Shown here: one piece after another, positions 6,901 through 49,123 of the stretch
Layout: the number at the start of each line of letters is the position of its first letter
Numbering within the stretch: the stretch's first letter is position 1
NCBI RefSeq assembly: GCF_039555335.1
Contig: NC_092629.1
Location: 6,433,432-6,497,431 of the forward strand
DNA length: 64,000 nt
From: Amphiura filiformis
Lineage: Eukaryota > Echinodermata > Ophiuroidea > Amphilepidida > Amphiuridae
Direction: 5' to 3'
Notes under the pieces: generated by a model
Database searches by the model: none
Told to the model about the DNA's origin: nothing
Seen by the model: the letters and a program-made list of their open reading frames with translations, nothing else
Program-made: the position numbers and the translations under genes

Positions 6901-9900
6901 GGTTTACTTACGGGAAGTACACCATGCAGACAACGCGGGCGCATCGTTGTTAATCGGTGATGAACAAGAGTGAAACAGGATTGAATCCCTAAATTACGCA
7001 TAATTCACTTATCCAGATGTTTCACTTATCCAGCCAATGCTTGGTCCCATCATAGCGGATAAAACCTGTGTAATCTGGTGGGTTTTTTCAGCTGAATTAT
7101 ATGTTTTCCCATTTGTTCACAATGTTATGTACCATTTATAATTACTATTTGTATTTTCTGATTTATTATCGTGTATATATATATATATATGCTTCTTGTT
7201 CACAATGTAAATGCAGGGCCTCCTTGGAAATCAGTGTTTGACATTGAAGGAGCTACCCTAGGTAAAGAAAGTTCAAATAAATAAATAAATAAATAAAAGA
7301 GGTTGGACTGTATGTGATTTCAAAGATCTATTTTTTTCCTATGGGCAGGGATACATGATTTGCACTGGGAAAAAAATTCTGCGCAATCTCTGTGCAATTG
7401 GCTATTTTTTTCCGCGCAAATCACTTGTCCCTGCCTAAAAGTAACACATATTTTCACAGACTTAAATTTCAATTTTCTGAAATTATCAACAAAAGGTGCA
7501 AAAAATGAATACCTCACAAAACTTCTACGCTATACATGTAGAGTACTTACTTCCATTGCCCATTTTGGAGGCAGATTGGTGGCATAGAATAGCTTCAAGC
7601 GATCCATAACAGGACAGGCTTCATCCCTCCACTGATCTACTAGACTCTGTACACAAAGAGACAATGGGCTATTCCATTTAAAATCCACACTACCCCTGTG
7701 GAAGATCTTGGAAATATGTTCCACAGGGGAGTATGAATTTCAAATGGAATTAGCACAATAGACAACTCCATTTGATATTCATACACCCTCTGAGAATGAT
7801 TCAACTTGAATCTTCCACAGAGGGAGGGTGAGTTTCAAATTGAGCTGCTTAATGTGTTCATTCCATTTGAAATTCATACTCCCCCTGTGGAACATATTTC
7901 CAGAATCTTCCACAGGGGTAGTGTGGGATTTTAAATGGAATAGCCCAATAAACAAAAAAACAATCGTAGGATAGCCAAATTGAAGTGGCTACAGGAGATC
8001 TGTCGGCATTCCCATCATGCAATGCAATTTCCTACCCTATATTAAGCCTAATCACCCACATATATATGCTTCTTATCTCTATACATGTATGCCCTTGTGC
8101 AGCCCCATCACATATCTGCATCATTTGGACCCTTATTTTTCACCATCCTCCTTTGATCCTTTTCTAGCTGACATCAGAGCATCCATGCTGATCGGAATTG
8201 GATAGGAACATTTGTGATGCTATACCCCTCCATTTGTGCTGCTATACCTGCTATAAGTCTCACCCTAATCTCTAACAGCAATATATATAATGCCCCACAT
8301 TTTTAGGATTCTTGTATACCTGCGTCTGCATATGCCCTTTCAACAGTTCTTCTATTGTCTTTTTCTGTTTGGTCAGTGCTGAAGCACCCCTCTTTAAAAG
8401 AAACATCCCTCTGACATACATCCCCTTCATCTCTAGACCCTTGAAGGCCCCTTCCCCATACTTGCATTTGTATCATGGCATTCTCCCCTCCGGTTGACAT
8501 CTCAGCATCAAGGTTGCCTTTTCAGAGGAATTATCCCTATAACCCCTCTACATGCATTTATGACCCCCATCACTAAACCCTTGAGAGGGCCCCCATACCT
8601 GCATGTGCATCATGTTCCTCTCCAGTTTTCCTCTTGTCTCTTTCTAGTTGATATCTCAGCATCAGTGCTGCCATGCCCCTCTTCAGAGGACCAATCCCTA
8701 CAACCCTCTTAAATACATTTATGACCCCCATAAGCCCTTGAGGGCCCTCCCCCATACCTGCATCTGCATCATGGCCCTCTCCAGTAATCCTCTTGTCTCT
8801 TTCCAGTTATTATCTCAACATCTTCAGAGGACCCATCCATATATATGGCCCCTGTCTCTATGCGCTTGAGCCCCCCCCCCCCCCCACCCCCCACCTGCAT
8901 CATGACCCTCTCCAGTTCTCCTCTTGTCTATTTCCAGTTGACACCTCTAATAGCACCATGGCTGCCATGTACAGTCTTCAGAGGACCAATCCTAGACTAA
9001 TTCCAATCAGCCGTCTACACTTCGCATGTACTGTGTATGCTTCGTAGTGACGACTGATTATCTTACAGCCAATATCATGATGGACTTCTGAAAACTATTC
9101 AATGCGACTTTGGTTGTGCGCCAGAAGCGACTGACTAGCGGCGCCCGTGTACCAAGGCGTCGCTGTACCAAGCGCCGCTGTGACAAGATCGCGCTCTGAA
9201 CTTCTAAAAACAACAAACTCGGTCAAAAGGTCAATTTGGTCACAACTGCGCATGCTCTATGCCACAGGAATCCTGTTGCAAAATCCGTCACTTTTTTTCC
9301 ACGTAGTTTTCTCAGTCGTCAATCCAGACGGTTGACGACTGAGGGCAGCAGTCTAGACCAATCCCTACAACCCTCTTAAATGCATTTATGACCCCCATCC
9401 ATAAGCCCTTGAGGGCCCTCCCCCATACCTGCATCTGCATCATGGCCCTCTCCAGTAATCCTCTTGTCTCTTTCCAGTTATTATCTCAACATCTTGGCTA
9501 CTATACCCACTCTTCAGAGGACCCATCCATATATATGGCCCCGTCTCTATGCTCTTGAGCCCCCCCCCCCCCACCTGCATCATGACCTTCTCCAGTTCTC
9601 CTCTTATCTATTTCCAGTTGACACCTCTAATAGCACCATGGCTGCCATGTACAGTCTTCAGAGGACCAATCCCTACAACCCTCTTACAGGCATTTATGAC
9701 CCCCATCCGCAAGCCCTTGAGGGCCCTCCCCCATACCTGCATCTGCATCATGGCCCTCTCCACAGTCCTCCTCCTGTCTTTTTCCAGTTGACATCTCAAC
9801 ATCAATGCTGCCATGTGTACACACCATGTTTGAGGTTTCGCTAGCACAGTCTATCGGGAAAAATCGGGACAAAATTAATTGTTGAAAAAAGTTTTGGTCA

Positions 9901-12900
9901 CAGAATTAGATGCCGCTGAATATATTTTGAGTCCTTGCTCAAAGCACAATGAAAACTAGCAAACATGATTCTACTTCAATTCTTATGAAACACTTGTGTT
10001 TGCTAGGAAGCATTTAAAATTATGCATAGCTATGAGTGTTGTGCACAAGCAGCAAGTAGTTGCAAATGCATTCTGAGCAAATTAGATGGAGAATCCGGAC
10101 TCCCTATACCATCCTGTATAAAGCTCACAGTGACCCCTTCAGGCATGGTGATCAATTTTGGGTATACGGGCCCTTGGCGACAGTATGCAGAAACAAATGA
10201 AAAACAATTCTGTGTCAAATCTAACGAGAAATATGATCTTATAGTTCGCCCTTTACACCATTAGTACAACACGTGTTAAATATAATGAAATTTTACTTGT
10301 GGCGTTGAATTGAATGGAAAGGTAAGTTAGAATAGGATTTGTCCATGCAATTTTGCAATCACGACACCAGTTTTAAGCTTACTTACCATGCTTACATGCT
10401 ATGGCAAGGATGTTTCTGCATTTTGGTCATTTTTTCTTTGAAAATGAAACAAGATGGGGGTGGGGTATAAGGGGGTGTTAATTAGTACTAATATGAGATG
10501 TATAATAGCTTACTATGACATAGGCAAGAATCTCTTCAGCCAGTAATTCATGCTTTGGGCTATTCTTCTTCCTTTCAACCCTGTTAGAAATAAAACAAAC
10601 ATAATGGTTTTAGAATTTTTCCACAATTTTATAGACCCCCCAATCCCTCAACAACAACATCAAGACCAATCCTACATTTATTAAATCCTAGGATTTCCCA
10701 CAGTAAATGGGCCAAAACTTCAGAACTTTAGAACCAAGTATGCTAGACATTTGGTGTTTTCAGTGTATGATAGCCTAATGTTTGTATAGTCCCTAAATTT
10801 GAAATCTACAGTCCCTGTGTGTGAGATTAAGGATACGATACATGATTTACCGACAAGTGACTCATTTCGGAATGCGATCATGAATTTTGAAGAAAAAAGA
10901 GTTTCCACAGGCTTCGTTGGGATTCGAACCAGCGATTCGAAACTTCCTTTGATTACGCGTCTAGCGCTTTACCGCTCGGCCACGGTGGCAGTTGAGTGGA
11001 GGAGTGTAATGATAAATGATAAATCTCATAATGCCATCTTTAGCCTTTTGTTTACTAAAAAGACGCGCTTTTGTAAAGATAGATTAGCCGTTTATGCATA
11101 AAAGACACGAACGTTTGGGAAAGGTTTCAAACAAATAATAAAGACACTGATGTGATGATGAAATTGCGTAAGTCAGGAAATATCCGGCGTCGCAATGTTT
11201 TGTTTTAGTTTTAGGAATTTGACCTTAAAATTTACGACTTCATGACATTATCATTGAAATCAACAAAAGATATTTCAACAGTATATGGCCTCATTCTTTC
11301 TCTAGAATGTTTTGTACATGTATGTGAAATAGCGTCAACAATATGGTTCGCTGCATAATGGTAAAAACAGCCTTGACCTAAAAAAGGGCGAGAGGTACCA
11401 TATTTACGGATTCAGGCTAAATTTAAAATTGATATAAAACGTTTGTTTTTTGATCGATTACAAAAATTAATTTTTATCATATAAAGAAATTGTGTCTGTC
11501 GTGAATTACACTACAGTTTTTATTCTTAGGGCTCTTTGACTTCTTCAAATAATTTTTTTAATGATAGAGTGAATCGCCTGGCCCTCTATAATTACGCACA
11601 AAAGATTGAGTCCCCTTAAGTTCAAGGAAACATCCTTGCGGTCATTATGGTCACCCTGCTTTTCAAATTTGACCCTCACTTTGGCTATCAGGTCATATTC
11701 ATAAACTGCTACCATATTTATTGAGCTGACTGTATATACAAGTGCACCAAATTGAATTAGCATCTCCTACCATTTTAAAAATGTCTGCCCACGGGCCAAA
11801 CAGCATTGCTTATCTTAATTGCAGGATATCTACATAACTACTCACCCTACAGCTAAGACAATTGCCTGCTCCACAGATGACAGCACTGGTATATGTCCCT
11901 CTCCTGGGTCTTGTAGCTTGATTGCATTTAACAATGTATCATCATCCAGAGCAAGGTCCTGCAAAGAAAAATGAATTAGAAAAACAATTAGCTGATGAAA
12001 AAAGTCTGTTCTATGTGAGGACATATAGAGTTGATTGGTCAGGATTAGTTTTTTTTTATGGAAGAGGCCCTAAAAATCACTGAAAGCTTGAAAATCTGAA
12101 AAATAGATTGAAATTTATTTGCAAACACATTTCAAAAATTTTCCGTCAAATCAATCCACATTGGCCAAAACCGGCTGTTTAAATTTCTTACAGCTAAAGA
12201 ACACCCCACAACGCAAACATCTGGGCCTTTTTATGTCAATTTAATTGAGCAACATCACTTTTATGAGGGGGTATTAGTGACATTCTCGGTCCAGACAGGG
12301 GATAAATTGGCCCATAGCCTTTTAACACTTCATGTGCACAACCCATGAGCATCCAAGATGGATGTCATGGCATGAGCAGCCATCTTGGATGTGCAGTAAA
12401 GTTGAATTCAAAATCTGTTGATGTGGAACAATCATTAGAAATGTTTATGAAGTACAGTCCAACCTCTCTTATCCGGACCTCTTTTATATGGATCTCTCTG
12501 TTATCCGGATGTGAAATCTTCACAGGGAAATATGTTTTTGATGATTTACCACAGGTAATTCCATACTCTGAATACTTAGAATGACATCTATGTTGCAAAA
12601 AGCACTCTAGAGCCATCTTTTATTACACCATGTTTAAACAATCTTTTGTTGTCACCATTTCAGTACTTCGGTCAGTCAATGCAGAATTATGTGTAATTCA
12701 CTTATCCGGATTTTTCACTTATCCGGACAATGTTTGGTCCCATCATGGCCGGATAAGAGAGGTTGGACTGTAATTGTAGTATATATTTTCTAGACTAATT
12801 CCATCACTAGTCTACACTGCGCATGTATTTGTATACTTCGTAGTGACAACTGAATAACTACAATTGTGGCGGACTCATGAAAATATTCTCTTGAAACTTT

Positions 12901-15900
12901 GGTCATGCACCATAGCGCGACTGACTATCTGTGCCTGTGTACAGCGCCGTTTGTACTGCGCCGTTGTGACAAGATTGCACTCTGAAGTTCTAAAAACATT
13001 ATACTCGGTCAAAACTTCAATTTGGACACAACTGCGGAGGCTCAGTGAAAGTTCAACAGACTTTTGCAACCAGAATCTGGTTGCAAAAGTCCTCCATTTT
13101 TTTTTCACATAGTTTTCTATTGTTGTCAATCCAGACGGTTGACGAATGAGGGCAGCAGTCTATATGTTTTCCCTCACTCGCATATCCAAGATGGCAGACA
13201 TGTGCCATCGCAGAGTTTGATTTTACTGTTAGCACATTTATATGCCATGTGCGAATTAGGAAGTATTTTAATTTATAAAAGGATTCAGGTTTATTAAAAT
13301 AAACCTGAATCCTTTTATAAATTATTCTCATCTTCTTCATTCAACCTACCTTCGGAAGTCCCAGGATAGGTTCTCTTGCATGCTCAACCACTTCCTGATG
13401 AGTTTCATCAACCCCTGATTCTGTGGACTCCCTCTCCACCTTCAGTAACAGCTGGGCAAGGTTGTTATGCTGAAACTTGGTCCTCTTCCCCAGAGCACCT
13501 GCATAATAATTGGTAACATACAGAAAATGGTATATAATACTGTTTATCATACAAAAAGATCTGAAATCTGATCGTCATACCACTGTGGAAGACGTCAGAA
13601 AAGTCTTCCAGAGGGAATATGTTTTTCAAATTCAAATGACTTCTGTTCATTCATTATTTTCAAACCCATACTCCCTCTTTATGATTTTACCTACATCTTT
13701 CACAACAGGAGTGAATATTCTTAATCAAAGTTACCCAACTGTCTATTTTATTTGAAACCCATACTCCCTCTGTGGAAGACTTTAGCTAAATCGCCCACAG
13801 GGAGAGTGTGGATATTTCAAGTGGGATAGCCAATCCTGTGATTTCATTAAATTCAGATTTCCTTTTTACCCATCCATGGTACATGTAATATAAGGGTTTA
13901 TATACCATAAGAATAATCTGTCCTTTGATGGGGATCCCTTTATACACTTTAAAAAGTAACTCAAAATAAATCCTTCCTAGCTAACCCGTATGCTTATATT
14001 AACCCCCCCCTACAATAATTTCCCCCTCCAATCTTTCAATGAAAAATGGACAAAAATGCAAACAAATTTTCATACCATATCATATAAGTTTAAAACTTAC
14101 ATCAGTCATGTCACTTTTGATGGCTAAATAGCATGGACAAAACCTATTATGACTCAAACATCCATCCAGTTTATTGCCTTATTATGGTAGAATTTCACTA
14201 ATTTCATCAGATTCTTGTTTGATGATGCACTGACGGATTTAATTTCATTGTATTTACCACAAAATATCAGGTTCCAAGCGGTTCTGTGGGCGGTGCCATC
14301 TTGAATTTAAAGCCAGAAGTGAGAGATTCTTCCAAAGTTGCCATTGACTTTGAAGCTTTGCTCACTGAAAATTTACTTTAATAAATACCTCCCCTTTGGA
14401 AATATGCAACACCCACAAGCGTTTTTACAAACAATACAGTACATGTACTCTATTTCGTTCAGCCAGTTAAGCCAATACAACATTTTTGTTTGCATTGTGT
14501 CACATATGTTTACATGTACATACCTGTTAATGACACTTTCAGTCCTGCTAATTTTTCTGCAGATTGGAGATGATCCCTAGATCCTTTGTAGTTATAATAG
14601 TACTGCATAATGTGACTACACTCCAGGTGAAAGGCCATAGAAAGGTTGGGATGGCGCTCTTTGCATATTAAAACATCATTTGCTGAAACTGGAAAACATT
14701 GTGAAAAATAAGGTTCAACAATATCACACTTCAAGTCAGTGAAACCTTTCCATCATTAATAAGCTATTTTAATACTGTACACCTTTGTTTGAGATGGACA
14801 TGTTATTTTGGCAAAGGCCATATAATAGGCTATAATACATTAAAAATCATTTGTATAGCCCCCCTCCAAAACTAGTGCCTTGTATACACACTTTACAGAA
14901 TTCTTTTTAATGGGCCTCTTTCCATTTTACATGTAAAGTCTATGGAGATGAAGATTAGAGAAAGCTGGAAAGAGCACTATAACCTCATTTTAGGCACTCG
15001 AACATTAAAAAAGAACCGCATGAACTTTTGTAACAAAATTCGCACATAATGCTATTTGAGCAAGTATGAATAAAAAGTAATTCTTAAGAGGGGGTTATAG
15101 CCAAAACAACAAATTTCCTATACCTTAGTGGAATAGTGGTAATGAAACAAAAGTGTGTATAGCGTGACATTTTTCACAGGGTTATTAGCTATATGCTTTT
15201 CAATGTTAATTTCATAACTGCAAAATACAAAAGCCTGCAAATTATATTGTTGACCTTTAGGGTCGGTGTGTACTACACACTGTGTAGGTCTTTGAAACTG
15301 CTAATGGGCTATTCCAGTTGAAATCCACACAGCTTCTATGGAAGACATGATATTAATCTTCCAACAGTGTGAATTTTAAATGGGGTTACCTGAATTGGCA
15401 ACTCTATTTAAAATCTACACCCCCTGTGTGGGAGATTATGGTCATGTCTCCATTAAGGGGTGTATGTATTTTAACCAGAATAGTCTAATACAACTAACTA
15501 TAAAACTGCACAGAACTCAAAATTCACGATGAGAAAACCATAACACTAAGTTTTCTACCATACTATTTTTCGTCTTAGTGAGTAAGTGACATTGACATGC
15601 CAGTGCAACAATGGGGGCGTGTTCAAAAGTGTGCACATGTGTGTCAGGGCATTGAGCAAATTGGCTATTCCATTTAAAATCCACACTACCCCTGTGGAAG
15701 ATCTACAGAGGGAGTGTAAGTTTCAAATAGCATAGACATTTGGGTAAATTTCATTTGAACTACTCCAGTTGTGGAAGATATAGGTAAAGCCATAATACAG
15801 GTTGAGTATGGGTTTCAAAAAGATTGACCCTGACCAATTAAATTTGAAAAACATACTCCCCCTGTGGAAGATATTTCCAAAATCTTCTACAGGGGTAGTG

Positions 15901-18900
15901 TGGATTTCAATTGGAATAGCCCAATGCCTATTATTTGAACCTGTGCACTGGCAACAAATAACCAATGCCGTGTTATTGTGTGGCAATTAAATATACATAC
16001 CTTTTTGAATGAGTGGAATGATTTGATCAAAGATTGAGGGGCTCTCTCATCCAATACCTGCTGCCAAACCCACAGACATCGTACTGCCCACCATGTACTG
16101 GTCTGAAAGATAAAACACACTATGTGGATTACCAACCATGCTCATCTAATTAAGGAGCTGGGTACATGTAAATAGTAGCTAATATGACCTACATGTAGTG
16201 GACATCAACTGGAGACAATACTTACAAGTAGCAACATCTAGTACAAATGGGCACAACTCATACTTCTGGTAACCCTACTGTAGCACCCAGGTCTACTCAT
16301 CTTCCTTTTTCTCAAGAATACAATACAATACAATACAATACAATACAATACAATACAATACAATACAATACAACCAAGCAATTATATAGCACCCTCTAAG
16401 GACCATGTGCAGCACTTTCCAAAGGAAAACATAGGAACAAGGAACCACCAGGATGTTGGATCAACTTGGAAGTTGACCCCACAGTGTTATTATATCTACT
16501 TGTGAAGCCTGCACTTGAAGTTATGGCTAAACTTGGTTGAAATCTCCTTGAGTATTTTGCACAAGAAATATTTTAACCATCTCCAGGTGGATGGAGACTG
16601 CAGATGGTAAGTTCCAAATTTTCTTTAAAAATTCAAAAAATTTCAGAATTGTACATTTTTATGACAATATTTGGAATCAGCATGAAAAATGCATTAAAAT
16701 GAGTACAAAGAAGCCTATTGGTTCAGTGGTTTTTGAGATCGCTCTTGATATTTTGAGAAAATATCTCAAAACTTGGAACTTCTTATGTTGAACCCTATGG
16801 CTAACACGAAGTGGATTAACGAACCACTGGTGGAAAGAAACCTGTACGTTAATACTCTTTCACTTACCAAACAGTTTGCAATCTCCTTGAGTGAGTCTAC
16901 CAGTATACATTTAGCAAGGAGTAAGAACTCTGGTGCAGCTACCAATGGGTAGATGTTACAATCATCAAGACTGAGTTCACTGAGGGTTATGTCTCGAACT
17001 TGTTGAGCCTGTCCAAATTAACAATAAAGGACAATCAAATTAAATTTAGTTTGAAAGTAACCCTTGTTATCAGATGTTAAGAGCTTTTAATAGCACTCTT
17101 CATTCTCACTCGCATAGTGACGTGTCCAGTGATGTATACTGTAAACTTTATTTTACTGTGGTTCAACCATAATGAGTGAAAATTAATCTCCTGCAAAAAA
17201 TTCCCCTTAATCAGCATTTCCCATGTCACACCTGCAAATTCAACATACCGTAATATTAAAAGGCTGTGGCCTGATCGACAGCCTTATCCCACATTTGTCT
17301 AAATCAAAACTGAGTTTTTTTGTATCAGAAGAAATCTCAAAAGTTTCTCATTACCCCATACAACTTTAACACCCAAGGTATGTTTTTATAAAATGGTGTG
17401 AAATAAAACGTGGTATATAGTGGTGACCACAACCGGAAGTATGTACATGTACTATCCTATGGGACATTGTTATACACATTTTTGCTTCTCATACAAAACC
17501 GTTTGAGCAATACAAACATATTGTTTTATGGTAGGCCTCAATAAAGATAAAATTAAACTAAAACTTGAAAAAAATCAGACTATGCCCCTTAATAACGACA
17601 CATTGCACTTACTGTTTCTTTGTCCTGATCAGCATCAGTCATACATTGTAGAATATTGAAAGTAATGTTGGGTCCTGTCCAGTTATTCTGAATAAATAGC
17701 TGAAGACTGGCAACACCAACCAGGAACAAACTCCTCTGTCTGGGAACACCATGAGAACAAAGAATTCAGTATCAGTCATACATTACAGAATATTGAAGGT
17801 AATGCTGGGACCCATAGGTAATGTAGAGACCTGTCCAGTTATTCTGAATAAATAGCTGAAGACTGGCAACACCAATCAGGAACAAACTCCTCTGTCTGGG
17901 AACACCATGAGAACAAAAGAATTCAGTATCAGTCATACATTACAGAATATTGAAGGTAATGTTGGGACCCATAGGTATTAATGTAGAGACCTGTCCAGTT
18001 ATTCTGAAGACTGGCAACACCTATCAGGAACAAACTCCTCTGTCCCACAATGAGAACAGAGCAATTCAGTACTGCAAAAACTGTCCTGCAATACATTGTG
18101 AATTTTAATGTCGATTTGGCTTGATTGGGCTATTCCAGTTGAATCCATTCACCCTATGGAAGACACGACCTTTATCTTCCACACAGGGATTGTGAATTTG
18201 AAATGGGGTTACCTGATGAATGGGCGACTCCATTTGAAATCAAGTCAAGTCAAGTCTTCCATACATGTAGATGGTGTGTGGATTTCAACTGGACTAGCCC
18301 ATTCCCAATCAATGTTGTGTCAGGATTTTGTTTTCTGTTCTGCCACAGCAGAGGGTTTGTGACCGGGTGTGGACTGTGTGGTTGACTTGTGTTCCTTCAG
18401 TTTCTCCACAAGTTGTTTACCTGTAGGTGTTGTACAATGGGTTATTCCAATTAAAAGCCATACACCATAGATTTCAAATGGAGTCACTTATTCAGGTAAC
18501 CCCATTTGAAATTCACACTCCCTGTGTGGGAGATTAAGGTCATGTCTTCCACAAAGGGTGTATGGATTTCAACTGGAATAGCCCAATCGCCGCAGGGGAT
18601 GTCGTAGACCACACCTGTTTTCAAATATCAAGTGAAATGATCAGGGATCAGGTCCGTAGGCCCCCCCAAATCTGAAAAAGGTCTTCTTTGTCTGTCAAAA
18701 ATAGCAAAATTGACCAAAAATGTCAAAAAGTTTGAAAAATATATATCCCAAATCATGAACTTTCTGAGAAATTTGTTAAAAAATAGTATCCAAAAATCAA
18801 TTGCAGAAGGGATAAAGGTCTACTTTTGGCCAGAATGAAAATTTCTCTTGAAAAGGTCTGCATTTGGAAAATCTGCATGAAAAAATTCTGGCTACGGGCC

Positions 18901-31805: not shown

Positions 31806-31855
31806 ACGCCTACGGTATGTACAGTGTCCTTTTTCCACCAGAAGTTCTTTTAAGA

Positions 31856-32301
31856 AATCTATCAACTTGATTCTTGTTCTTAAGAATTAAAATTCTTAAG
31901 GGGGTACTACACCCCTTCATAATTTTTTGTCTATTTTTGCATTTTTCTCAAAAACTAATACTACAGTGGTACGGTAACAAAAGTTAAGTATATTATAGGG
32001 GCAAGGAATCCAAGTACTATACTGAAATTTCAGTGACCCATGACAAGCGGTTTGGTATTTATGATAAGAAAAGAGGTACCGATAGAATGTACCTCATTTC
32101 CAATCATATATACTGAACCGCTTGTCATGGGTCACTGAAATGTCAGTATAGTAATTGGATTCCTTGCCCCAATAATATACCGTACATAACTTTTTTTACC
32201 AGTGTGTTATTATTTTTTTGAGAAAAATGCAAAAAATAGTCACAAATTTACCACAGGGGTGTAGTACCCCCTTAAGAACAAGAATCAACTTGATAGATTT
32301 T
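31856..32301. mobile_element. Fold-back palindrome
   Basis: AAGGGGGTACTACACCCCT and its complement bound arms of about 190 bases; ATCTATCAACTTGATTCTTG extends the outer ends. The centre is near 32087. Confidence 0.87.
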
Positions 32302-32453: not shown

Positions 32454-32868
32454 CTCTCATTCTTAGTCAGTTAATTACCGGTACCGGTATTTTTTTGATA
32501 ACTAAAACTAGTTTTAGTTCTAAGGAAAAATAAGTTTACAAAACTCCCCTTATTCTAAAATGAACAAAACCTGTTTACATTAAGTTCAACTTCAGTTGCG
32601 TGCAGTGTGTGGTGTATTACGCACTATGCTTACAATGCGCTATTTACACGCAGCTTGTGAGCACTTCGACAAGTGAGTCTTAAAATTTATCGCGATATGA
32701 TCGACATCGCGATAAATTTTGCATGATATCGCAGCATGGAAAACCCGGGCGATGCCCACCTTATAAAATTGGGGGGAACAAACATTTTTTTCATGGATTT
32801 AAAAAAAAATGATAGCAATTAAGGAATGCTTGAACAGTGCATCAGTCACCATTTGACACCATTTAATT

Positions 32869-32975
32869 ATGCTGGTTTCATATACTGTCATTCCGCTTCT
32901 GAGCAGTGTGCCACACATGCATTGCAGACAAATGCGATACAATCCGGCTTGTCATTCGCTGATACGTCATGCCAA
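32869..32975. mobile_element. MITE family B fragment
   Basis: TATGCTGGTTTCATA at the left and GCAGACAAATGCGATACAAT inside, as in 22722-22873. The right terminus is missing. It lies directly upstream of DRC7. Confidence 0.55.
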
Positions 32976-33030
32976 TTGAGTTCAATTTAAATTTATATGT
33001 AATTTTCCCCTAGATTTACACACAACAAGC

Positions 33031-33215
33031 ATGCCTAGTGAACAGCCAGAAAGCCCTGCTATTGTAGTGGATGATGAGGGTGCAGAACAAGACACAGAGA
33101 ATGGTAAAGGAGATGGAGCTACAGATGAAGAAGTTTCTGCTGAAGCACTTGCAGCTGTAACAGAAATGCAGGAAGAATTTGATAAAATTAAACTGGAAAT
33201 GCCAAAAGTAGATTT
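33031..33215 (+). CDS. DRC7: DRC7 coding exon 1
   Basis: ATG at 33031, donor GTAAGT. An acidic N-terminus of 61 residues ending KLEMPKVD. An acceptor-like CCCCTAG at 33007-33013 suggests that an upstream non-coding exon may exist. Confidence 0.85.
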
Positions 33216-39200: not shown

Positions 39201-42200
39201 TGTAGTATGAAGGGACCTTTAGACCTACATGTATAAGGTATGTTTCCAACACGTACAACCCTCTCAATTTGTGTCTCATTTTAGTTGTTTCAGGTGAATG
39301 ACCCGCAACTAAAATTGCTTCTTGTGTACGACCTATAAGTTATAACATTATGTTTAATTTTAGGAGCTTGAGCAGCTGTTTCTGGAGATTAGTCCGCTAG
39401 TTGCTTGCTGTGTACAAAATAAGTTTTCAACACTCGCAATTTTTGTTTCATTTTAGGAGCTTGAGAAGCCCCCAGAGGATGAATTATATGGCCTGCGTAT
39501 CCACTGCTGGGTGCTGGTGTTAGCCGGCAAGAGAGAGGTCCCGAGAATTTCTTCCTGGAACCAATGACGGGGAATGCATACCCAACGTCACACCCAAATT
39601 ATCTTGGTATAGAGTCACTGTGGAATAACACAAACTACTGGGTTAACATGCAGGATTGCTCACAAGGATGTAAGGTAAGGATGTGGTACCTCAGGGGTCT
39701 GTCATTAGGCCTTTTAGTTTATTATCTAGCATGATGATTATTATTTTGTAGTCATCGAGGGAAAATGTTATAAATGTTACAAAAATTTGTAACAAAGAAT
39801 TTAAATGGGTGTGACCAGAATGACAGCCTCACCCCACTTTATCCTATCAAAATAGAGACTCAGCATGGAAAAAAGTTCATATTTTTCTCATAATCCCAGT
39901 AAAATTATAGGCCTGAAATGTATTCCATTTAGATGTTATGAACGAGAGAGAAATAACCTCATTGCCCATGGTGATTACCACCCATAAGCCTGCTGTTCTA
40001 TATGGGCAGTTGTGAAATATGTTTTTGCTTCTAAATCTCTTGTAAAAGCTAAATTTATTTTATTCCATGTATGCTGTAGGACTTGATTTTTGACCTCGGC
40101 GATTGCACACGTTGGGAGTTCATGTTCCCTAGCAACGAGAAGCCAATTTTGGAGCTTCCTGATCAGGAGGATGATGAATTGGACTTTGAAGACGATGAGG
40201 TAAGTGGAAAGAAAATGACGCGTTTGGATTATTACATTACACCCGCTATGGAAGACATGCCCTTAATCTGCCATACAGGGGTGTAAATTTTAATTGTAGT
40301 CATCCATTTATGTACACAGAGATGCCACTTTTCCTGATTTATCAGGAATTCCTGATTTTGCCATTTTAGACATAAATTCAGGAAGTGTCATCTCTGTGTG
40401 CACTACATTGAAATTCACACTCCCTATTGGGAGTGTGAATTTCAAATGGATGTAAAATATTAAGGTCATGTCTTCCGGAGGGGATGTATACGGAACTGGA
40501 ATAGCCCAATTTAAAGATACATAAGCCCACCAGCCCATCATTTAGGTAAAAGAAAGAAGAATAACACTGAAGAAATATGCTGGTTTCATACTTTCTGCCT
40601 CTTGCGGCTGAGTGGTATGGCTGCTTGTTCTTTTCTGCAAGCGAGCAGAACACCTCTGAGCTGCAGCAGCAGCAGGATTATGAAAGCCAATGTTCAGCAC
40701 TGCCAAAAATCGTATCTTGTTCTCATACGTCAGAGAGACACCACTCCCGAGTTGACTTGAATTCAACTCCTGCTGCTTTGGGTAAAGTGGTGGAATGATC
40801 GACATATCGGCTTGCCGCTGGTCACCGCTAGCATTTCTGGTGCGACTGCGCAGTGAAGCAAACTCGTTGTCAAAGCGGCAAGCAGCAGGAAAGTATGAAA
40901 CCAGCAATAGATGAAGAAATGTAGGCCACTCCCACAATAAAATAACAATTTTTCTCTTATAGCTCTTGGGTTGAGAGATAAGAAATTGGAATTCTTATCC
41001 CATGCCTCTATCAAGCCTAAAAATACTTTTTATTTCTTTCAGGACTACTTTTGAAAAAAAAGCCCTGTAATTTAACTTTAAGTGGCTACTTTTGAGATTA
41101 CTGGAGCTAAATTTATTCCACATTTATTTTGAGCCACAAGCCTCAAAATAATTTCTTTTCAGGGCCACATTCTATAAAAATTGCCCCATAATTGTTAAAG
41201 ACTGTTGTAGGATTTTTGGGGTGGGTGGGGAATGTTCTTAGCCCCATCTATTTGGAGCCCTGACCTCTATTATCATCATTATCGCTTGCTTTTGACATCC
41301 TTTAGGATGAACAGAAGGAAGAGGAGAAACATATGGACATGCCACCCTCCTGGGTAGAGGGGATTCAACTGACTCCTAAACAGTTTCAGATGAGATGCCC
41401 ACATGGAAAGAAGATGCTCCTGTATAAGCGAGCTAAGCTGGAGAAGTTTGCTCATTACCTGATGAAGGATGGACTGGTGACAAGACTATCCATATACAGT
41501 GATAAAGAATGTAAGTCTATGTTTAAGAGCCGGCATCGGCACTGTTTTTTGATGTTGATATGTCGACATATTTCATATCTCAATGTCGACACACACATTT
41601 GGATTCTGAAATTTACCAGGACTTTTTTTTTCATGATTTTAGGAAACTTGTAAAAAAAATTCCACCACCACCACCTAAAAATTGACATTTGTAGGCTATT
41701 TGAACAGCTAAACATCATGTTTTCCCTTAGTGAATTATCCTTTCTAATTTAGTCTTTGCTGGCTACATTAACATTTCCCCCTGAAAAGTAGATGGTATTG
41801 TCAGGGGGGGAGGGGGGTTAAGCTGAAGGGTGGTGATAAATAAAGAATGTAAGCTTCTAGTGGGATGAAGAATAATGGACAGATGACAATTTACAGTGGC
41901 ACCTTGGTAACACAAAATTGTCAGGGCCTTGTGCAAGCAAGTTTTTTTTCCGATATGCCAGTATTTTTAGCTACTTAGCTAGTTTTTAAATTTGCTATTT
42001 ATAAGTTTCTTCCATAGACCTATATATAAAAGAACAAATGTTTGCGCTTCTATTTTCGCAGTAGCTGTGTTGAGAGCAAATTGTACATTTAAAAATGTCC
42101 ACTCTACAGTGATTGCAATGCGTGTAAAATGTGTCACGGTTTGTGAACCAGATTGACGTAGATATCAAAATGTGTAGGCTTAAAAATTGCTTTATCATCA

Positions 42201-45200
42201 TTTAGATGGCTGTGACTGCTTTGCTATGCTTACAAGCACAGAGAGTTTTAGCAGGCCCAGTACTGGAGACAGGAGTGGGATAACGGGTCCATTCCCTGGG
42301 CCGGGGGAAGTATAGCCCATTTGCCTTTTGGAGGACCTGTTTGTTGGATTTTTTTTTTCATTTTAAAAATTGGCACCACTTTTTCTTGCAGTCGGGCCAG
42401 CTCACGGTTGGCCAGGCTGATGGTGCATCATAGTAAATGCCGACAGAGATTCCAAGCAGTTTTAGTCTTGATCAGATTATGGCTCCTTTGTCCCCACTTG
42501 AACAAAGAGCAATTTAAGTAAACATGTCCTTCCTGCTACTCAGAATTGTGATTACACTTCCAGTGCAGGTTGCAAAGTTGCATGTAATAAGATGTATGCC
42601 ATCTTGGATACTGGCAAGAGAAATTACCATAGTTACATCAAAAACATTTAAATGATTATTCTTAATGAACAGATTTGAAATTCACCATTCCCGCACAATC
42701 AAGATGGCCGACATGGGGTTGTGTCAGGTCGCATTATTGCATCCTGCGCACAGAGTGGCATTCGTAATAGGTGAAGTGAAATGGTAATCAATAAAGTATA
42801 GTCATTGTAATCTTTTCAATTTGTATTCTAGCTTTTTTCTTGTCAATATTATGTGTTCATGATTTTGTAAGGTGCTTTGGGGCCTTGGCATCAGACGCCA
42901 TCATTATTATTATTATGGGGCATTTGATTGCTTGAAGAAAGTTGTTGACTAATTTTGCCACAGACGTATTGTAATTTATGTTTTGTCACTTTAATTACAG
43001 TAAAGGATCTGGTGAGTGTGAAGGAATGGTTTTCACATAGAAATGATAACTTGGACATCAGAGTACACAACCATAGATCTGGACTTGTGACAGAGTATTA
43101 TGTGAAGGGAAGACCTCAACAACTCAGAGGTAGGTCCTTAAGGGCAGCTTTATAATAATGGCCACCAAACCATTATCATGATCTGTGAGGGTGAAGGAGT
43201 GGTTTTCACATTGAAAAGATAACTTGGACATCAGAGTACACAACCATAGATCTGGACTTGTGACAGAGTATTATGTGAAGGGAAGACCTCAACAACTCAG
43301 AGGTAGGTCCTTAAGGGCAGCTTTATAATAATGGCCACCAAACCATTATCATGATCTGTGAGGGTGAAGGAGTGGTTTTCACATTGAAAAGATAACTTGG
43401 ACATCAGAGTACACAACCATAGATCTGGTCTTGTGACAGAGTATAATGTGAAGGGAAGACCTCAACAACTCAAGAGGTAGGTCCTTAAGGGCAGCTTTAT
43501 AATAATGGCCACCAAACCATTATCATGATCTGTGAGTGTGAAGGAGTGGTTTTCACATTGAAAAGATAACTTGGACATCAGAGTACACAACCATAGATCT
43601 GGTCTTGTGACAGAGTATTATGTGAAGGGAAGACCTCAACAACTCAAGAGGTAGGTCCTTAAGGGCAGCTTTATAATAATGGCCACCAAACCATTATCAT
43701 GATCTGTGAGTGTGAAGGAGTGGTTTTCACATTGAAAAGATAACTTGGACATCAGAGTACACAACCATAGATCTGGTCTTGTGACAGAGTATTATGTGAA
43801 GGGAAGACCTCAACAACTCAGAGGTAGGTCCTTAAGGGCAGCTTTATAATTATGGCCACCAAACCATTATCATGATCTGTGAGTGTGAAGGAGTGGTTTT
43901 CACATTGAAAAGATAACTTGCGCCAGTGGATTCATAGTTGTGTGCCCTTAAGGTGCACTGAGCCTGGATGAGCTCTCTCTCTCTGTCTCTGCACTCGTGG
44001 AAGCTACATGTGCCTGGTTGTGATTATCACATTAGATTAATCCCTAATCCTTTTATTGGCGTTGGACATCAGAGTACACAACCATAGATCTGGTCTTGTG
44101 ACAGAGTATTATGTGAAGGGAAGACATCAACAACTCAGAGGTAGGTCCTTAAGGGCAGCTTTATAATAATGGCCACCAAACCATTATCATGATCTGTGAG
44201 TGTGAAGGAGTGGTTTTCACATTGAAAAGATAACTTGGACATCAGAGTACACAACCATAGATCTGGACTTGTGACAGAGTATTATGTGAAGGGAAGACAT
44301 CAACAACTCAGAGGTAGGTCCTTAAGGGCAGCTTTATAATAATGGCCACCAAACCATTATCATGATCTGTGAGTGTGAAGGAGTGGTTTTCACATTGAAA
44401 AGATAACTTGGACATCAGAGTACACAACCATAGATCTGGACTTGTGACAGAGTATTATGTGAAGGGAAGACCTCAACAACTCGGAGGTAGGACCTTAGAA
44501 AGCATCTTTATAATAAACCATGATTATGATTTGTGAGTGTGAATGAATAGTTTTCACATAGAAAAGATAACTTGGACAGAGTATTATGTGAAAGGAAGAC
44601 AGCAGCAACTCAGAGGTAGGTCCTTAGGGGCAGCTTTGGAATAATGGTCACCAAACCCAATCTGTGATCATGATTTGTGAGTGTGATGTGAAGGAATGGT
44701 TTTCACATTGAAAAGATAACTTGGACATCAGAGTACACAACCATAGATCTGGACTTGTGACAGAGTATTATGTGAAGGGAAGAGGTCAGCAACCCAAGAG
44801 GTAGGTAGCTTTGGAAAACATGACATTAATCCATGTAGGGATTGTGAATTTCAAATGGGTTATGTAAATGGGTGACTCCATTTGAAATATATACCCCTGA
44901 TTAAGGTCATGTTTTTAATAGGGGTGTATGGAATCACACGTGCTTATTTTCCATCTCTTTGATCCTTTCAGAGCAAACCTACAAAGCAGGCAGCCCCGGC
45001 CCTGAAAGCGACCGCACCATGCTGTTCTACCATCATGCCAGAGTTGATGGACTGGTGAAGAGAGAGGAGACTGCCCAAGAGATGAAGGAATATTATGAGG
45101 AAAGGGAGGATTTCTTGTATTCTAGGCAGGTGGAATTCGCTAAGAGACCAAGAAAGCTGGAGCCAGCTAGTGGTCAGAAGTCATCCACTCCAAGACCTAT

Positions 45201-48200
45201 AGTTGTAAGTAGTTTGTTAGTGTGTGTATTGGTGTGGGGGTATTTGTAAGCACCTCCAAAAGAGGACATTTATATGTGTAAGATATTTGGCCGGTTACAA
45301 AAGTATTCATTTCCTCAGTTACGTAAGTGTCCATGGTGTCCATAATTTTGTTATTTTACTTAATTGCATCACATATATATTTGTTCTATACCCTTACCCA
45401 TTCCATTGATCTATTCCATTAAAAAATTGCTGCAAAAAATTGAAATTTTCCTAATTTGTGTTTTTTAAGGCTGACAAGGGGGGACTGGGGAGGCATGAAA
45501 AAATTGGAGGGGGGGGGGCAAATTCCCCCCTTCTCGTACCGCCACCACTGAATGTAGATCCTACAAATGCCATGTCATTATGCTGTTCTTTGTTGCATTT
45601 TGATCTTATTATATCCAATAATAGTATTTTTTGCATGACACATCTGATTCTCTTGATCTAACTAGCTTTACTTCTACTTTTCCATTGCAGAAAATTATTG
45701 ACCGCTTCCACCGCAATTCAGCCAAAAAAGCTAACGAAGATGTGGCAGAAGTTGTTTTCTTGATCGCTGAAGATCGCATCCAGCTCACATTCCATCATCA
45801 AGATACGAAAGTCACAGCTGCCACTCGTGATTTCATCAAACCACCGAACGCCAATAGCGACAAAGGCGCCATCTTAACTTTCTCGTCTGAAATGACGTCA
45901 ACTTTTGAGGTGGACCCGTTGAATAAACCTGCTAAGAACTTGTATGTGTATGACATGCTTGTGAAACTGGTTGAAGAAGAGGATAAGACGGTAGCCTGTG
46001 TAAGAGATTCTGAAGATGAGGTGAGGATTGGGGTTATCTAATTTTGAGACTGTGCCCATTGTTATGTATGTAAACTGACTCGCCAAGGTCAAAAATACTA
46101 TAATGGCTTGTATGGAAATTTGTAATTTGAAGTGAGTGTAAGTACGCTGTGGTATCAGAATCAAGCACTTTTTGTATAGTGATTATTATGACCCAGGTTT
46201 GGTACTCAATGCATGATATAGTCTACATAGTGATAATCGCCTTACACATAACACTTCAGTGGTGAAGCGATTTAAATACATCTAACTCGGTATATTCAGG
46301 TGAGGGTTGATACCAGGGGTATGCAATTTTGAAGCTTTGCCCATTGACATGCGCACTGAAAACAGTATGTATGGCTGTGTATATCAACTGCGCTAAACTT
46401 GACTGATATATTTTGTAGTCAATTTATTTATGTTGCAACCAACCATTGTTTTTCAGGTTAGGAATATCTTGAATGAAAGGAATGAGGAAGAAGATCGATC
46501 AGAGTTGGACATATCAGTTTACGATACAGAGAGAAATGAGAAGGCTAAGAAACACAGGATTGAAAGGGTAAGACTTTAGTGGCGTACCAACCAAGGCAAG
46601 GGGGAAGGTTTTTTATGTTGTTGTATTTTATTTCTTCTTTAACCTGGGACAGTCAATCAGTTGAAAATACAATCATTGATCTTCCTTGAGGCCCAGAAAG
46701 TTGCACCTGGCTTGAAAAAACGGGACAAAATTTGTTATGTGCATCTACCTTTTGACCTGTTTAGGCCACAATTATCCTGATTTTTGCCAATTTTACCATA
46801 AAATTGCAAAATTAAAATTATCCCAATAATTTTTGCCAGTTATTTTGGTAGTGGGTTAATGGCAATTATTACAAATTATTTTCCCCCTTGAAAATTTTCT
46901 TCTTAAAAATACAGGAAAGTGGGCTCCAACAAATCTCTCTTCCCCTGTGAAGCAGACCCTTTTATAACAATGAATTATTTTGGGAAGGGGCAGATTTTTG
47001 AAATAGTGGACTTTTTTGGACAGATTTGTGAAAACGTGGACTTTTTGGGACACCACTTAAAATGGGGTGGATTTTGGGAGGATTATTTGGGAAAAATAGG
47101 GTGGATCCTTTTGGTGATATGTGTGGAATTCTAGGGATTTTGGGTGGATTTGAGGGGATTGTTGCACCGTGGTGGATGCATCTGCCCCTCATCTGGCTAA
47201 GGGCTTGCTTTCAAATATATCATAAATATAATACAAGTATTCTTGTTTTTCTGTTTTCCAGGAGCGTCTGCAGCTGGAGGAAAAGAAGCGTCGTGAGGAG
47301 CTAGAGCTGGATTACCTCGCTCCTTTCTTAGCACAGATTGGTGATCCTGATAAGCTTACCAGACAACAAGCCTTAAAGCTGAAGGAAGACTGCCTTGCTG
47401 ATCTGAAACAAAGACTCATTGATAAGGCCAATCTAATCCAAGCAAGATTTGAAAAGGTAATAGTTATGTTTCATATACTCTCAGATAGCAAAACCAATCA
47501 GAGCAAATGTTAGAAAATTACAAACCACGTATTGATTGTGTATAATGCACAGGCACGCATTCACCGTACTATGCGCAGTGTTTATGGACGGGTTAATTTT
47601 TCTTGCTGGTTGATGCATGTATTTTCCAACATGTTAAGTGCAATTTTGTCATAAAAATAGCAAAAATCAATTTTCCATTGTATGAAATTTAGGTTAATAA
47701 GTGTGTATCACTTGTTGCCAGAGAAATTGTACAAAATAATGCACTTGTACTGAGATGTTGATGCGTCCAGTGCACTATCATGTGTGGGCTCATGCATTGG
47801 ACGGATTGGCATCACAGTATGCATGCATTCGTTTGTGCAATTCCACTCCCAACAAGTGATACGCATTTATTAATCTATAAGTATGACTTACAAGAGTATT
47901 GTCTTTCACTTCCTTGTGTAACCATGTCATATAAAGTCAGACCATGTATATGTTTTGGGCTATTCCAGTTGAATTCCATACACCCCCTATGGTGATATGT
48001 GATATAGACATGACCATAATCTTCCACTCAGTAAGTGTGAATTTCATATGGGGTTACCTGAATGGGTGACCTCATTTGAAATTCACACTCCCTGTGTGGG
48101 AGATTAAGGTCATGTCTTCCATAGGGGGTGTATGGATTTCAACCGGAAGAGCCCAACGTAACTTCACTGGTTCTAAAGTGTGTAAATGTTGATGTTTTCA

Positions 48201-49123
48201 GGAGACAGCCGAGTTACAGAAGAAACAGCAATGGTATCAGCAAAACCAGGTGAACATGCAGAAGGAAGGCGAAGAAGAATACTTGGAATACTGCAGTGAA
48301 GCTATGTTCAGAATACATATATTGGAATTGAGATTGAATAGGTAAGCACATGGGTACACCCATTGTGTGATTGGTCATTATGTTAGGGAACCCTTAAACA
48401 ATTTGTTATATTTCACCAACATTTCTATTGATGATGCAGTGAAGCTATGTTCAGAATACATATATTGGAATTGAGACTGAATAGGTAAGCACATAGGAAC
48501 ACTCATTGTATGATTGGTCATTATGTTAGGGAACCCTTCAACAATTTGTTGTATTTCACCAACGTGAAGCTATGTTCAGAATACATATGCAGGGACTGCC
48601 TTTTGAGGAGAGCGAGAGTTATCACTCAGGAGAGTGATTTTTAGCTCTCATTAGTGAACCATTATCTCCTTGCATTCTATTGTAAATGCTCCAAACAGCT
48701 CTCCTTGATGGCTCCAGAAAAGATATTTAATGCTCTTCTGCAAATTTAAAATGACAGTCCCTGCATATGTTGGAATTGAGATAGGTAGGCACCTATAATT
48801 ATTACCAAACCCAATGATATGTGACAATATAAATTGGTGCACATGTGTAAAACAAATAAAGCCACACCTAACTTTTTACACTTTGTAAATAGTTTTCTAT
48901 TTATTTCAAAAATCATTATAAGTTGTGGATCCTATATCATACTTTGCATCTGAACTCTTTATGTTTCTCCATGTCATTGATTTCATTTCTTGTATAAAAG
49001 AAATTAAGTTCTTGTATTTTCTTAATCAATTTTCCTTGTAGACACAAAGAGATGGCGCCTCACAAGTACATGGCTCTGGAACAGAAGCTAAGAACGGACG
49101 GCAGACTATCGGAATTCTTCTAA
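33031..49123 (+). CDS. DRC7: DRC7 (CCDC135), dynein regulatory complex subunit 7; frame broken in this sequence
   Basis: Fourteen coding exons: 33031-33215, 34247-34537, 35262-35454, 36264-36422, 39457-39674, 40080-40199, 41306-41510, 43001-43129, 44972-45204, 45691-46020, 46457-46567, 47262-47456, 48202-48341 and 49042-49123. They would encode about 864 residues, against 874 in human. The order is an acidic N-terminus, a transglutaminase-like segment with Cys in KGTCFDMSNLLCSLL (about residue 176), a charged coiled coil (about 225-285), the GLRIHCWVLVLAGKREVP region, MPPSWVEGI, the RPIVKIIDRF region and a C-terminal coiled coil. DRC7 is a subunit of the nexin-dynein regulatory complex on axonemal doublets and is needed for sperm and ciliary motility. 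Exon 2 lacks one base near 34425-34429, exon 3 lacks two (about 35421 and 35441) and exon 5 one (about 39540). TTC27 next door shows no such indels, so this may be a decaying allele, a pseudogene or assembly error. Confidence 0.93.
33560..33800. repeat. Dispersed repeat, copy 1
   Basis: Shares GGCAGACAGGTGGCTAGCTA and preceding AGAGTTCAAATAA and GGCCTTGTTTTG-like blocks with 53860-54130. Probably a transposon fragment. Confidence 0.6.
34247..34537 (+). CDS. DRC7: DRC7 coding exon 2, contains a frameshift
   Basis: Acceptor CTACAG, donor GTAAGG. Reads VPDLDRDAYPYAYKE through LNECGVEKFVC in one frame, then IRPTLLPFQDLYNFDGCSEF to the donor in another. The shift is at 34425-34429, where five bases stand in place of two codons (vertebrate VCTTLRPTLLP). 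One missing base explains it. Confidence 0.9.
35262..35454 (+). CDS. DRC7: DRC7 coding exon 3, two one-base deletions
   Basis: Acceptor GCTGCAG, donor GTTGGT (weak). Encodes SPTTVLRRQKGTCFDMSNLL and AYVVCGYATRETTLCDETR, the transglutaminase-like core with Cys and a conserved Asp. Compared with its own downstream copy, it lacks one G near 35422 and one A near 35443, ending the frame prematurely at 35438. Confidence 0.88.
35521..35767 (+). repeat. Two partial copies of DRC7 exon 3
   Basis: Copy 2 (35521-35626) and copy 3 (35664-35767) repeat the 3' half of exon 3 and its GTTGG donor. Copy 2 is open throughout and encodes FDAYVVCGYATRETTLCDET then REICPLMKKKDE without the two deletions seen in the upstream exon. 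Its left end, CTTTAAG, could act as a weak acceptor. Copy 3 has lost eight bases. Confidence 0.88.
36264..36422 (+). CDS. DRC7: DRC7 coding exon 4 (coiled coil)
   Basis: Acceptor CCTGCAG, donor GTAAGG, 53 codons in phase 0. VVKKYTVKPPKDLRSKF is followed by a Glu/Lys/Arg-rich helix. Vertebrate equivalent KKYTIKPPRDL. Confidence 0.92.
37080..37265. repeat. Dispersed repeat, copy 2
   Basis: Diverged copy of 16590-16800 in the same orientation, in DRC7 intron 4. Confidence 0.55.
37457..37610 (+). mobile_element. tRNA-derived SINE
   Basis: GGCACGGTGGCGCAGCGGTA (box A) and GTGAGTTCGAGCCCC (box B) at tRNA spacing, followed by a non-tRNA body with TGTGCACTTGGGCAAGGTGC. No closing acceptor stem, so it is a retroposon rather than a tRNA gene. 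Confidence 0.8.
38205..39415 (+). repeat. Copies of the DRC7 exon 5 acceptor region
   Basis: A unit of roughly 95 bases with CATTTTAG-(G/T)AGCTTGA occurs at about 38205-38302, 39243-39330 and 39345-39415, and again as the real intron/exon boundary at 39420-39470. A TIR element (38303-39222) separates the first two copies. The third copy keeps a perfect TTTTAG acceptor followed by GAGCTTGAGCAG. Confidence 0.75.
38303..39222. mobile_element. TIR/fold-back element in DRC7 intron 4
   Basis: AAGGTACCTTCATACTATGC at the left pairs with GTAGTATGAAGGGACCTTT at the right. Inside, CATCCACTTGAC and GTGGATGTAAGGGCTTTTGC also pair. It inserted between two copies of the exon 5 acceptor repeat. Confidence 0.75.
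39457..39674 (+). CDS. DRC7: DRC7 coding exon 5, contains a frameshift
   Basis: Acceptor CATTTTAG, donor GTAAGG. GLRIHCWVLVLAGKREVP reads in one frame; ENFFLEPMTGNAYPTSHPNY and GIESLWNNTNYWVNMQDC read in the next. One base is missing at about 39540-39542, in a run of C. With it restored the exon is 73 codons. Confidence 0.92.
40080..40199 (+). CDS. DRC7: DRC7 coding exon 6
   Basis: Acceptor GCTGTAG, donor GTAAGT, 40 codons. DLIFDLGDCTRWEFMF then an acidic run, equivalent to vertebrate DLIFDLGDPVRWEYM. A MITE copy begins about 40 bases into the following intron. Confidence 0.93.
40240..40508. mobile_element. MITE family A, diverged
   Basis: CACCCGCTATGGAAGACATG to GGAATAGCCCA, with TTCACACTCCCTATTGGGAG in the centre. 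Confidence 0.7.
40578..40906. mobile_element. MITE family B, full length
   Basis: TGCTGGTTTCATACTTTCTG at the left and the complement AGGAAAGTATGAAACCAGCA at the right. The open frames here are by-products. Confidence 0.8.
41306..41510 (+). CDS. DRC7: DRC7 coding exon 7
   Basis: Acceptor CTTTAG, donor GTAAGT. Contains MPPSWVEGIQLTPKQF, RCPHGKK and YKRAKLEKFAHYL, all diagnostic DRC7 blocks. Ends with one base of a split codon. Confidence 0.95.
43001..43129 (+). CDS. DRC7: DRC7 coding exon 8
   Basis: Acceptor AATTACAG, donor GTAGGT. Encodes KDLVSVKEWFSHRNDNLDIR through VKGRPQQLR. This is the first member of a roughly ten-copy tandem array (43001-44812) and the only one with a proper acceptor and no stop codon. 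Confidence 0.92.
43130..44812 (+). repeat. Tandem array of DRC7 exon 8 copies
   Basis: About nine further copies of exon 8 and its donor, in units of about 175 bases, with exon starts near 43187, 43365, 43540, 43716, 43888, 44205, 44375, 44538 and 44690. The copies lack the normal acceptor and all readable ones carry CACATTGA where the real exon has CACATAGA, a stop codon in the DRC7 frame. The shared stop shows that the array grew from one already mutated copy. Copy 6 is split by a 141-bp insertion. Confidence 0.93.
43921..44061. mobile_element. 141-bp insertion with short inverted ends
   Basis: It interrupts one exon 8 copy. The ends are CGCCA and TGGCG and are flanked by TTG on both sides (43918-43920 and 44062-44064), a likely 3-bp target duplication. 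It contains a (CT)n stretch. Its transposon superfamily is unclear. Confidence 0.6.
44815..44935. mobile_element. MITE family A, truncated
   Basis: GGATTGTGAATTTCAAATGG, GTGACTCCATTTGAAAT and ATTAAGGTCATG blocks, about 35 bases before DRC7 exon 9. Confidence 0.65.
44972..45204 (+). CDS. DRC7: DRC7 coding exon 9
   Basis: Acceptor CTTTCAG, donor GTAAGT. Contains RTMLFYHHARVDGLVKREET and KEYYEEREDFL, equivalent to vertebrate FYETARVDGLMKREET and TEYYQGRPDFL. Confidence 0.95.
45691..46020 (+). CDS. DRC7: DRC7 coding exon 10
   Basis: Acceptor CATTGCAG, donor GTGAGG, 110 codons, the largest exon. Contains KIIDRFHRNSAKKANEDVAE and VVFLIAEDRIQLTFH, matching vertebrate KITERFFRNPAKPAEEDVAE and VFLVAEERIQL. 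Confidence 0.96.
46457..46567 (+). CDS. DRC7: DRC7 coding exon 11
   Basis: Acceptor TTTTTCAG, donor GTAAGA, 37 codons. LDISVYDTERNEKAKKHR matches vertebrate LTISIYDTKRNEKSKEYR. Confidence 0.94.
47262..47456 (+). CDS. DRC7: DRC7 coding exon 12 (coiled coil)
   Basis: Acceptor TTTTCCAG, donor GTAATA, 65 codons. LDYLAPFLAQ and RLIDKANLIQARFEK are near-identical to vertebrate DRC7. Confidence 0.96.
47956..48155. mobile_element. MITE family A, near consensus
   Basis: TGGGCTATTCCAGTTGAATT to GGAAGAGCCCA, with CTCCCTGTGTGGGAGATTAA. Ends 46 bases before the acceptor of DRC7 exon 13. Confidence 0.88.
48202..48341 (+). CDS. DRC7: DRC7 coding exon 13
   Basis: Acceptor GTTTTCAG, donor GTAAGC. LQKKQQWYQQNQ and YCSEAMFRIHILELRLNR match the vertebrate C-terminal coiled coil. 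Its 3' end is copied twice downstream. A MITE ends 46 bases before its acceptor. Confidence 0.95.
48434..48800 (+). repeat. Copies of the 3' end of DRC7 exon 13
   Basis: The block GAAGCTATGTTCAGAATACA with the following exon end, donor and about 90 bases of intron recurs at about 48439-48560 and again at about 48564-48790. The second copy has an AG directly before it (TGATGCAG), so it could act as an exon, but it would lack the exon 13 start. The third copy is split by a MITE. Confidence 0.85.
48590..48763. mobile_element. 174-bp MITE inside an exon 13 copy
   Basis: Inverted ends CAGGGACTGC and ACAGTCCCTG, flanked by CATATG on both sides (48584-48589, 48764-48769) as a 6-bp target duplication. 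The third exon copy resumes directly after it. Confidence 0.8.
49042..49123 (+). CDS. DRC7: DRC7 coding exon 14 (stop codon)
   Basis: Acceptor CTTGTAG. HKEMAPHKYMALEQKL then LSEFF and a TAA at 49121-49123. The vertebrate protein ends in the same way (HKELAPLKYLALEEKL). Confidence 0.94.

Follow-up and report, generated by a model that had tools for sequence, protein, structure and literature searches.

Tandem copies of exon–intron boundaries have been described in the globin genes of amphioxus, where these minisatellite-like repeats, located at 5′ and at 3′ exon boundaries, were named "mirages". There, the units are 150–160 bp long (those of BflGb6 are 81–100% identical), many but not all of the copies keep the AG or GT dinucleotide, and the inner units are homogenised, the edge unit being excluded; the structures were studied by reverse transcription PCR and on two haplotypes, earlier cases in Adh3 are cited, and mirages are proposed as a route to new introns. 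Another lancelet study reports imperfect splice-site repeats in PGBD5 and cites Adh and TnC (PMC3902484). Two further papers report variable internal tandem repeats that can lie at exon–intron boundaries in segmentally duplicated human genes and may form novel introns (PMC2812944), and intron gain via tandem genomic duplication, with a new intron reported (PMC4974935). Here, we describe six arrays of exon-edge copies in two adjacent genes of Amphiura filiformis, TTC27 (minus strand) and DRC7 (plus strand). All rates and counts given below come from one 64-kb stretch of contig NC_092629.1, a single assembled sequence that is referred to as the window. The arrays are probably mirage-type intragenic minisatellites: the observation is true and its kind is already known, although it is unusually dense at this locus.

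The original prediction, which was made from the sequence of the window, had drawn attention to these arrays and knew of no described process that would favour such copying in one genomic neighbourhood. The absence of a described process is not supported, as the same structures have been published as mirages for the amphioxus genes of globin, Adh, TnC and PGBD5. Among the literature matches listed, in a search that most subscription journals fell outside, the name mirage appears in two lancelet papers and no genome-wide count of such repeats is given.

Six exon-edge arrays in TTC27 and DRC7

To build the exon map, 15 exons were placed on the minus strand between 0.8 and 19.1 kb, in a gene that we take to be TTC27 from a colinear tblastn match to a human TTC27 sequence. 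DRC7 comprises 14 exons across 33.0–49.1 kb on the plus strand, placed via splice sites and reading frame; judged by the match of its joined exon translation to the DRC7 chain of solved axonemes (PDB 8j07_7; E 3e-256), its identity is secure. One-base frame changes were needed to match the protein in DRC7 exons 2 (34247–34537), 3 (35262–35454; two breaks) and 5 (39457–39674), and the reading frame is open in exons 6–14. These breaks are either local assembly base errors or the sign of a damaged gene copy. As the four of them hint at imperfect base accuracy, the exact copy numbers of the arrays should not be leaned on.

The window was compared with itself, blind to exon positions, for direct repeats 30–1500 bp apart, and clusters scoring at least 33 bits were collected. 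This census yielded 15 clusters, the best score among eight dinucleotide-preserving shuffles being 31.6 bits. Four clusters of dispersed, transposon-like sequence were excluded from the counts and P values. Among the 11 that remain, six contain one exon–intron junction each and no more: the donors of TTC27 exon 10 and of DRC7 exons 3, 8 and 13, and the acceptors of TTC27 exon 3 and DRC7 exon 5, with top repeat pairs of 45.7–1113 bits. These are the very six arrays that had been named without the census. The five clusters devoid of an exon junction lie at 20.6–21.2 kb (146 bits), at 54.2–55.3 kb (1338 bits) and, for three weak ones of 33–36 bits, at 27.5, 46.0 and 50.2 kb.

In TTC27, the exon 10 donor-side array (8040–9840, minus strand) consists of the full exon (9840–9737, donor CAG/gtatgg) and eight decayed copies downstream in the intron; self-comparison revealed a block amplification within it, segment 8689–8992 being 88.7% identical to 9356–9672. 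The exon 3 acceptor-side array (17613–18071, minus strand) holds the full exon (17739–17613) and two upstream copies with the exon start, the acceptor AG being lost in copy 1 and kept in copy 2. The four DRC7 arrays are on the plus strand. At exon 3 (donor side, 35352–35769), the full exon (35262–35454) has its 3′ half repeated in two downstream copies with the donor; the copy joined to the acceptor hits stops and copy 2 reads in frame. At exon 5 (acceptor side, 38203–39469), three decayed copies precede the start of the full exon (39457–39674); they end at 38246, 39284 and 39363 and, with the true acceptor at 39456 as the last point, are separated by 1038, 79 and 93 bp. Their identity to the true acceptor region is 73–82%, and AG is present in all three. 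The exon 8 donor-side array (43006–44806) comprises the full exon (43001–43129) and nine extra downstream donor copies, spaced by 173–174 bp where intact, with one unit split by an insertion and another bearing an internal deletion. The exon 13 donor-side array (48292–48792) contains the end of the full exon (48202–48341), a single copy downstream of it and a further, third copy that an insertion has split. Tandem copying, as first claimed, holds in general but is not clean for the unevenly spaced copies of DRC7 exon 5; likewise, the earlier extents and copy numbers were corrected to ∼8.04–9.84 kb with eight decayed copies for TTC27 exon 10 and to nine extra copies for DRC7 exon 8.

Each of the six arrays has its full exon at the end predicted by the geometry of one-junction copying, which places donor-side copies downstream and acceptor-side copies upstream. 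Repeat offsets are ∼125–175 bp in five of the six. The share of the exon that was copied ranges from ∼6% (DRC7 exon 5) to ∼96% (DRC7 exon 8), and the exonic breakpoints have no common position. Identity of the copies to the full exon extends from ∼98% down to ∼64% across the arrays, indicating that the events differ in age.

The retention of one splice site and the loss of the other, noted earlier for most of the copies, is indeed seen, with one junction per array; however, it needs no special process, because geometry makes it common. When a 150-bp unit is placed at random on the exon map of the window, 10.7% of the placements contain one junction, 0.7% contain at least two, and 1.3% fall wholly inside an exon. 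Exactly one junction is thus found in 84% of the exon-touching 150-bp units (51% for units of 64 bp, the size of the DRC7 exon 5 unit), and the chance that six of six exon-touching units carry exactly one is ∼0.22, so that geometry largely suffices. Selection would also act against duplications of a whole exon or of a part within it, as they would change the message. In tandem whole-exon duplication, whole exons are copied with both of their splice sites; local copying of exonic sequence is common to that process and to the arrays, but here each array has one junction and none of the six spans two, and whole-exon duplication was therefore rejected.

Splice dinucleotides survive well in the copies: GT or AG is kept in 23 of the 26 extra junctions (a total reached by two scorings, which disagree on four copies), including the three decayed copies of DRC7 exon 5. 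With the in-frame copy 2 of DRC7 exon 3, this would suit alternative or decoy exons with a function, retained to control splicing. However, relative to the exon, frame-breaking indels are present in 8/8 extra copies of TTC27 exon 10, 2/2 of TTC27 exon 3 and 8/9 of DRC7 exon 8, hence in 18 of 19 extra copies of these three larger arrays (the DRC7 exon 5 and 13 copies are too short to inform this test, and the reference copy of DRC7 exon 3 is itself broken). Moreover, as each array has a single junction, the extra copies lack a partner splice site, and in the array of TTC27 exon 10 conservation is no better in the exonic parts than in the intronic parts (76% and 78%, respectively). The broken frames make the extra copies of the larger arrays look like intronic debris rather than alternative exons, and we regard a maintained splicing function as extremely improbable. 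In the same three arrays, the extra copies covering the site have differences from the exon in common: 2 bp missing (or removed within a larger deletion), ∼20 added bases, and 1 bp missing together with GAAAAG in place of GAAATG. Such shared differences would fit a single initial duplication, after which the non-coding copy was amplified.

Three arrays carry small insertions with short flanking duplications. A 363-bp insertion in the TTC27 exon 10 array (8993–9355) has terminal TAGACT repeats and an 8–9 bp flanking duplication, and is ∼75% identical to 12790–13162 in the self-comparison; a 141-bp insertion in one DRC7 exon 8 unit (43921–44061) has CGCCA/TGGCG ends and a 3-bp TTG duplication; and a 175-bp insertion in the third DRC7 exon 13 copy (48589–48763) has inverted ends CAGGGACTG and a 5-bp CATAT duplication. 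These insertions bear on whether the arrays are an assembly artefact of error-prone long reads, which the four single-base breaks of the reading frame in DRC7 (exons 2, 3 and 5), suggestive of an imperfect consensus, could favour. Misassembly would not invent insertions with short flanking duplications, and the copies differ by shared changes; although copy numbers could still err, an artefact is highly improbable. The self-comparison of the window detected no sequence similarity among the six arrays, and a shared transposon was rejected as their source on this ground, in agreement with the original prediction. Capture by a transposon or a Helitron was also set aside, as no element sequence or termini are shared among the arrays, Helitron ends not having been searched for.

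Comparison with mirages and other duplications

The arrays present the structural features of mirages. The unit spans an exon–intron boundary in all six, DRC7 exon 5 being loosely tandem, and many of the copies keep AG or GT. In the alignments of DRC7 exon 8 and TTC27 exon 10, the inner units are, by eye, homogenised and the functional unit excluded; arrays of 2–4 copies are too small for homogenisation to be judged. Anatomy, unit size and unit divergence are the same as those described for the amphioxus globin mirages. By contrast, some of the copies described here are more decayed (down to ∼64%), six arrays are gathered in two adjacent genes, and they are known from DNA alone. In composition and in dispersed repeats, the window would seem closer to a hemichordate or an echinoderm than to Branchiostoma.

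The other systems are more distant. The lancelet PGBD5 repeats are imperfect splice-site copies as here, but concern one gene and few copies (PMC3902484). The human repeats share the boundary position; however, their units average 30 bp, about half of them are in coding sequence and they alter gene structure (PMC2812944), whereas the extra copies in the window appear intronic. In the case of intron gain, a short intragenic tandem duplication is linked to splice sites, as in the arrays, but a new intron is reported there (PMC4974935), whereas here the copies lie within a pre-existing intron, with no sign of a gained one.

Several observations nevertheless weigh against the assignment to mirage-type minisatellites. 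Random duplication alone does not predict that six of eight arrays lie at junctions. The frame state of DRC7 exon 3 is the reverse of that expected from the model, unless the assembly has base errors there. Finally, the copies of DRC7 exon 5 have decayed and do not form a strict tandem series.

Excess of arrays at exon edges

The position of the arrays relative to exon junctions was compared with uniform placement, a junction being counted when at least 8 bp inside the unit and unit lengths being hand-set from the alignments. The chance that a given array would contain a junction is ∼4–12% in the window and 8–21% within the two genes. Six of the eight strong arrays do so (P = 1.3e-5 for the whole window, 6.2e-5 for the region spanned by the two genes and 3.7e-4 when placement is restricted to the genes themselves), and when the three weak repeats are included, six of eleven (P = 2.1e-4, 9.5e-4 and 5.3e-3, respectively). 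The clustering at junctions that had been proposed is thus above uniform placement; however, these P values overstate the case, because the window was chosen post hoc, having been brought forward for this very pattern. GC content (43.5% in exons, 37.7% in the window) offers little towards the excess.

In a tiling test (E 0.05), 12 of 58 exon-edge segments had a near duplicate, as did 109 of 681 control segments outside transposable elements; by hand count, 53 of these 109 fall within the six junction arrays, so that outside them the figure is 56 of 628. The 12 positive edges include both edges of TTC27 exons 10 and 3 and of DRC7 exon 8, and three matches lie outside the six arrays, at TTC27 exons 14 and 11 and DRC7 exon 10. 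As segments within one array are not independent, the census with its shuffles was preferred. The excess in the tiling test is weaker than that of the census and counts against a large edge bias.

Two explanations concern the cause of this excess, and both are compatible with mirage-type arrays. The copies might be ordinary tandem duplications that cluster by chance and were noticed as exons are recognisable: arrays without known exons also occur (at 20.9 and 54 kb), the P value within the genes is only 5.3e-3 once the weak repeats are counted, and the window was presumably selected from many. Yet the census was blind to exon positions and returned P values of 1.3e-5 to 3.7e-4 for the strong arrays, so that chance is a tenable cause but not the one we would expect. 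Alternatively, a mutational process acting genome-wide could favour exon edges, through exon-positioned nucleosomes and Okazaki-fragment ends or through transcription-linked breaks. Six of eight strong arrays at junctions, well above the expectation for each, would be in line with it, as would offsets near nucleosome size in five of the six arrays and similar cases reported in several amphioxus genes. On the other hand, the exonic breakpoints are scattered, with ∼6% to ∼96% of the exon copied, which leaves nucleosome-centred breakpoints at mid-exon, or a simple nucleosome-edge rule, unsupported; the strong events number just eight, in a window brought forward because of the pattern; the highest-scoring array, at 54 kb, has no known exon; and the cruder tiling gave a much smaller excess (12/58 edges compared to 56/628 controls). 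Such a process is therefore unlikely. The junction excess is seen within the window, but chance and the picking of the window may account for it, and it deserves a genome-wide count before a new mechanism is claimed.

Two repeats without a known exon served as controls. The first (20635–21181) is a local duplication of ∼130 bp, 91% identical at an offset of 190. The second (54169–55340) is a tandem array in which an 85-bp unit occurs 12 times, two subtypes of the unit alternating with a 170-bp higher-order period; beside it, segment 53843–54129 is 69% identical to the DRC7 intron stretch 33533–33791. A hidden third gene under this array was considered and rejected: ten open reading frames gave no Pfam match above the curated cut-off, four weak sub-threshold names being taken as chance, and there was no Rfam match at the gathering score and no tRNA match. 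The weak repeat at 46.0 kb (46031–46066/46316–46351, 33.1 bits) starts just past the donor of DRC7 exon 10; it may represent a seventh copied exon edge, by now almost lost. In addition, the introns of both genes contain a dispersed family of small inverted repeats resembling miniature inverted-repeat transposable elements (7656–7955, 15300–15932, 18123–18588 and 47955–48156), and long inverted repeats, as in foldback-type elements, are present at 19341–19929, 24297–25802 and 31855–32300; these are palindromes, ∼590 and ∼450 bp long, and a pair of 500-bp repeats separated by ∼0.5 kb.

Proposed formation of the arrays and its meaning

If the arrays are mirage-type minisatellites, their history might be as follows. 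Replication slippage, template switching or misprocessed flaps would duplicate in tandem ∼60–175 bp across one exon edge. By geometry, the copy joined to the whole exon would keep its splice site, so that the real exon could still be spliced, and the extra copy would become part of the intron. The differences shared in the three larger arrays suggest that the freed copy then decays and is amplified, singly or in blocks, the functional copy being left out. Later insertions would land in the array, as they have in three cases. Surviving decoy splice sites are presumably skipped, since the copies have no partner site.

A broader proposal is that an ongoing process, not confined to lancelets, preferentially duplicates junctions in tandem, which would seed introns with decoy splice sites and contribute to the origin of new introns and exons genome-wide; this we consider quite doubtful. 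With six arrays of differing age in ∼50 kb, the locus is a good place to measure the rate of exon-edge duplication and its edge bias, and it is equally suited to asking whether decoy splice sites are ignored. In the amphioxus globin paper, mirages are proposed as raw material for new introns, a step that is not seen here. With a host that is not a lancelet, the arrays would add another animal lineage to the lancelets in which mirages were found.
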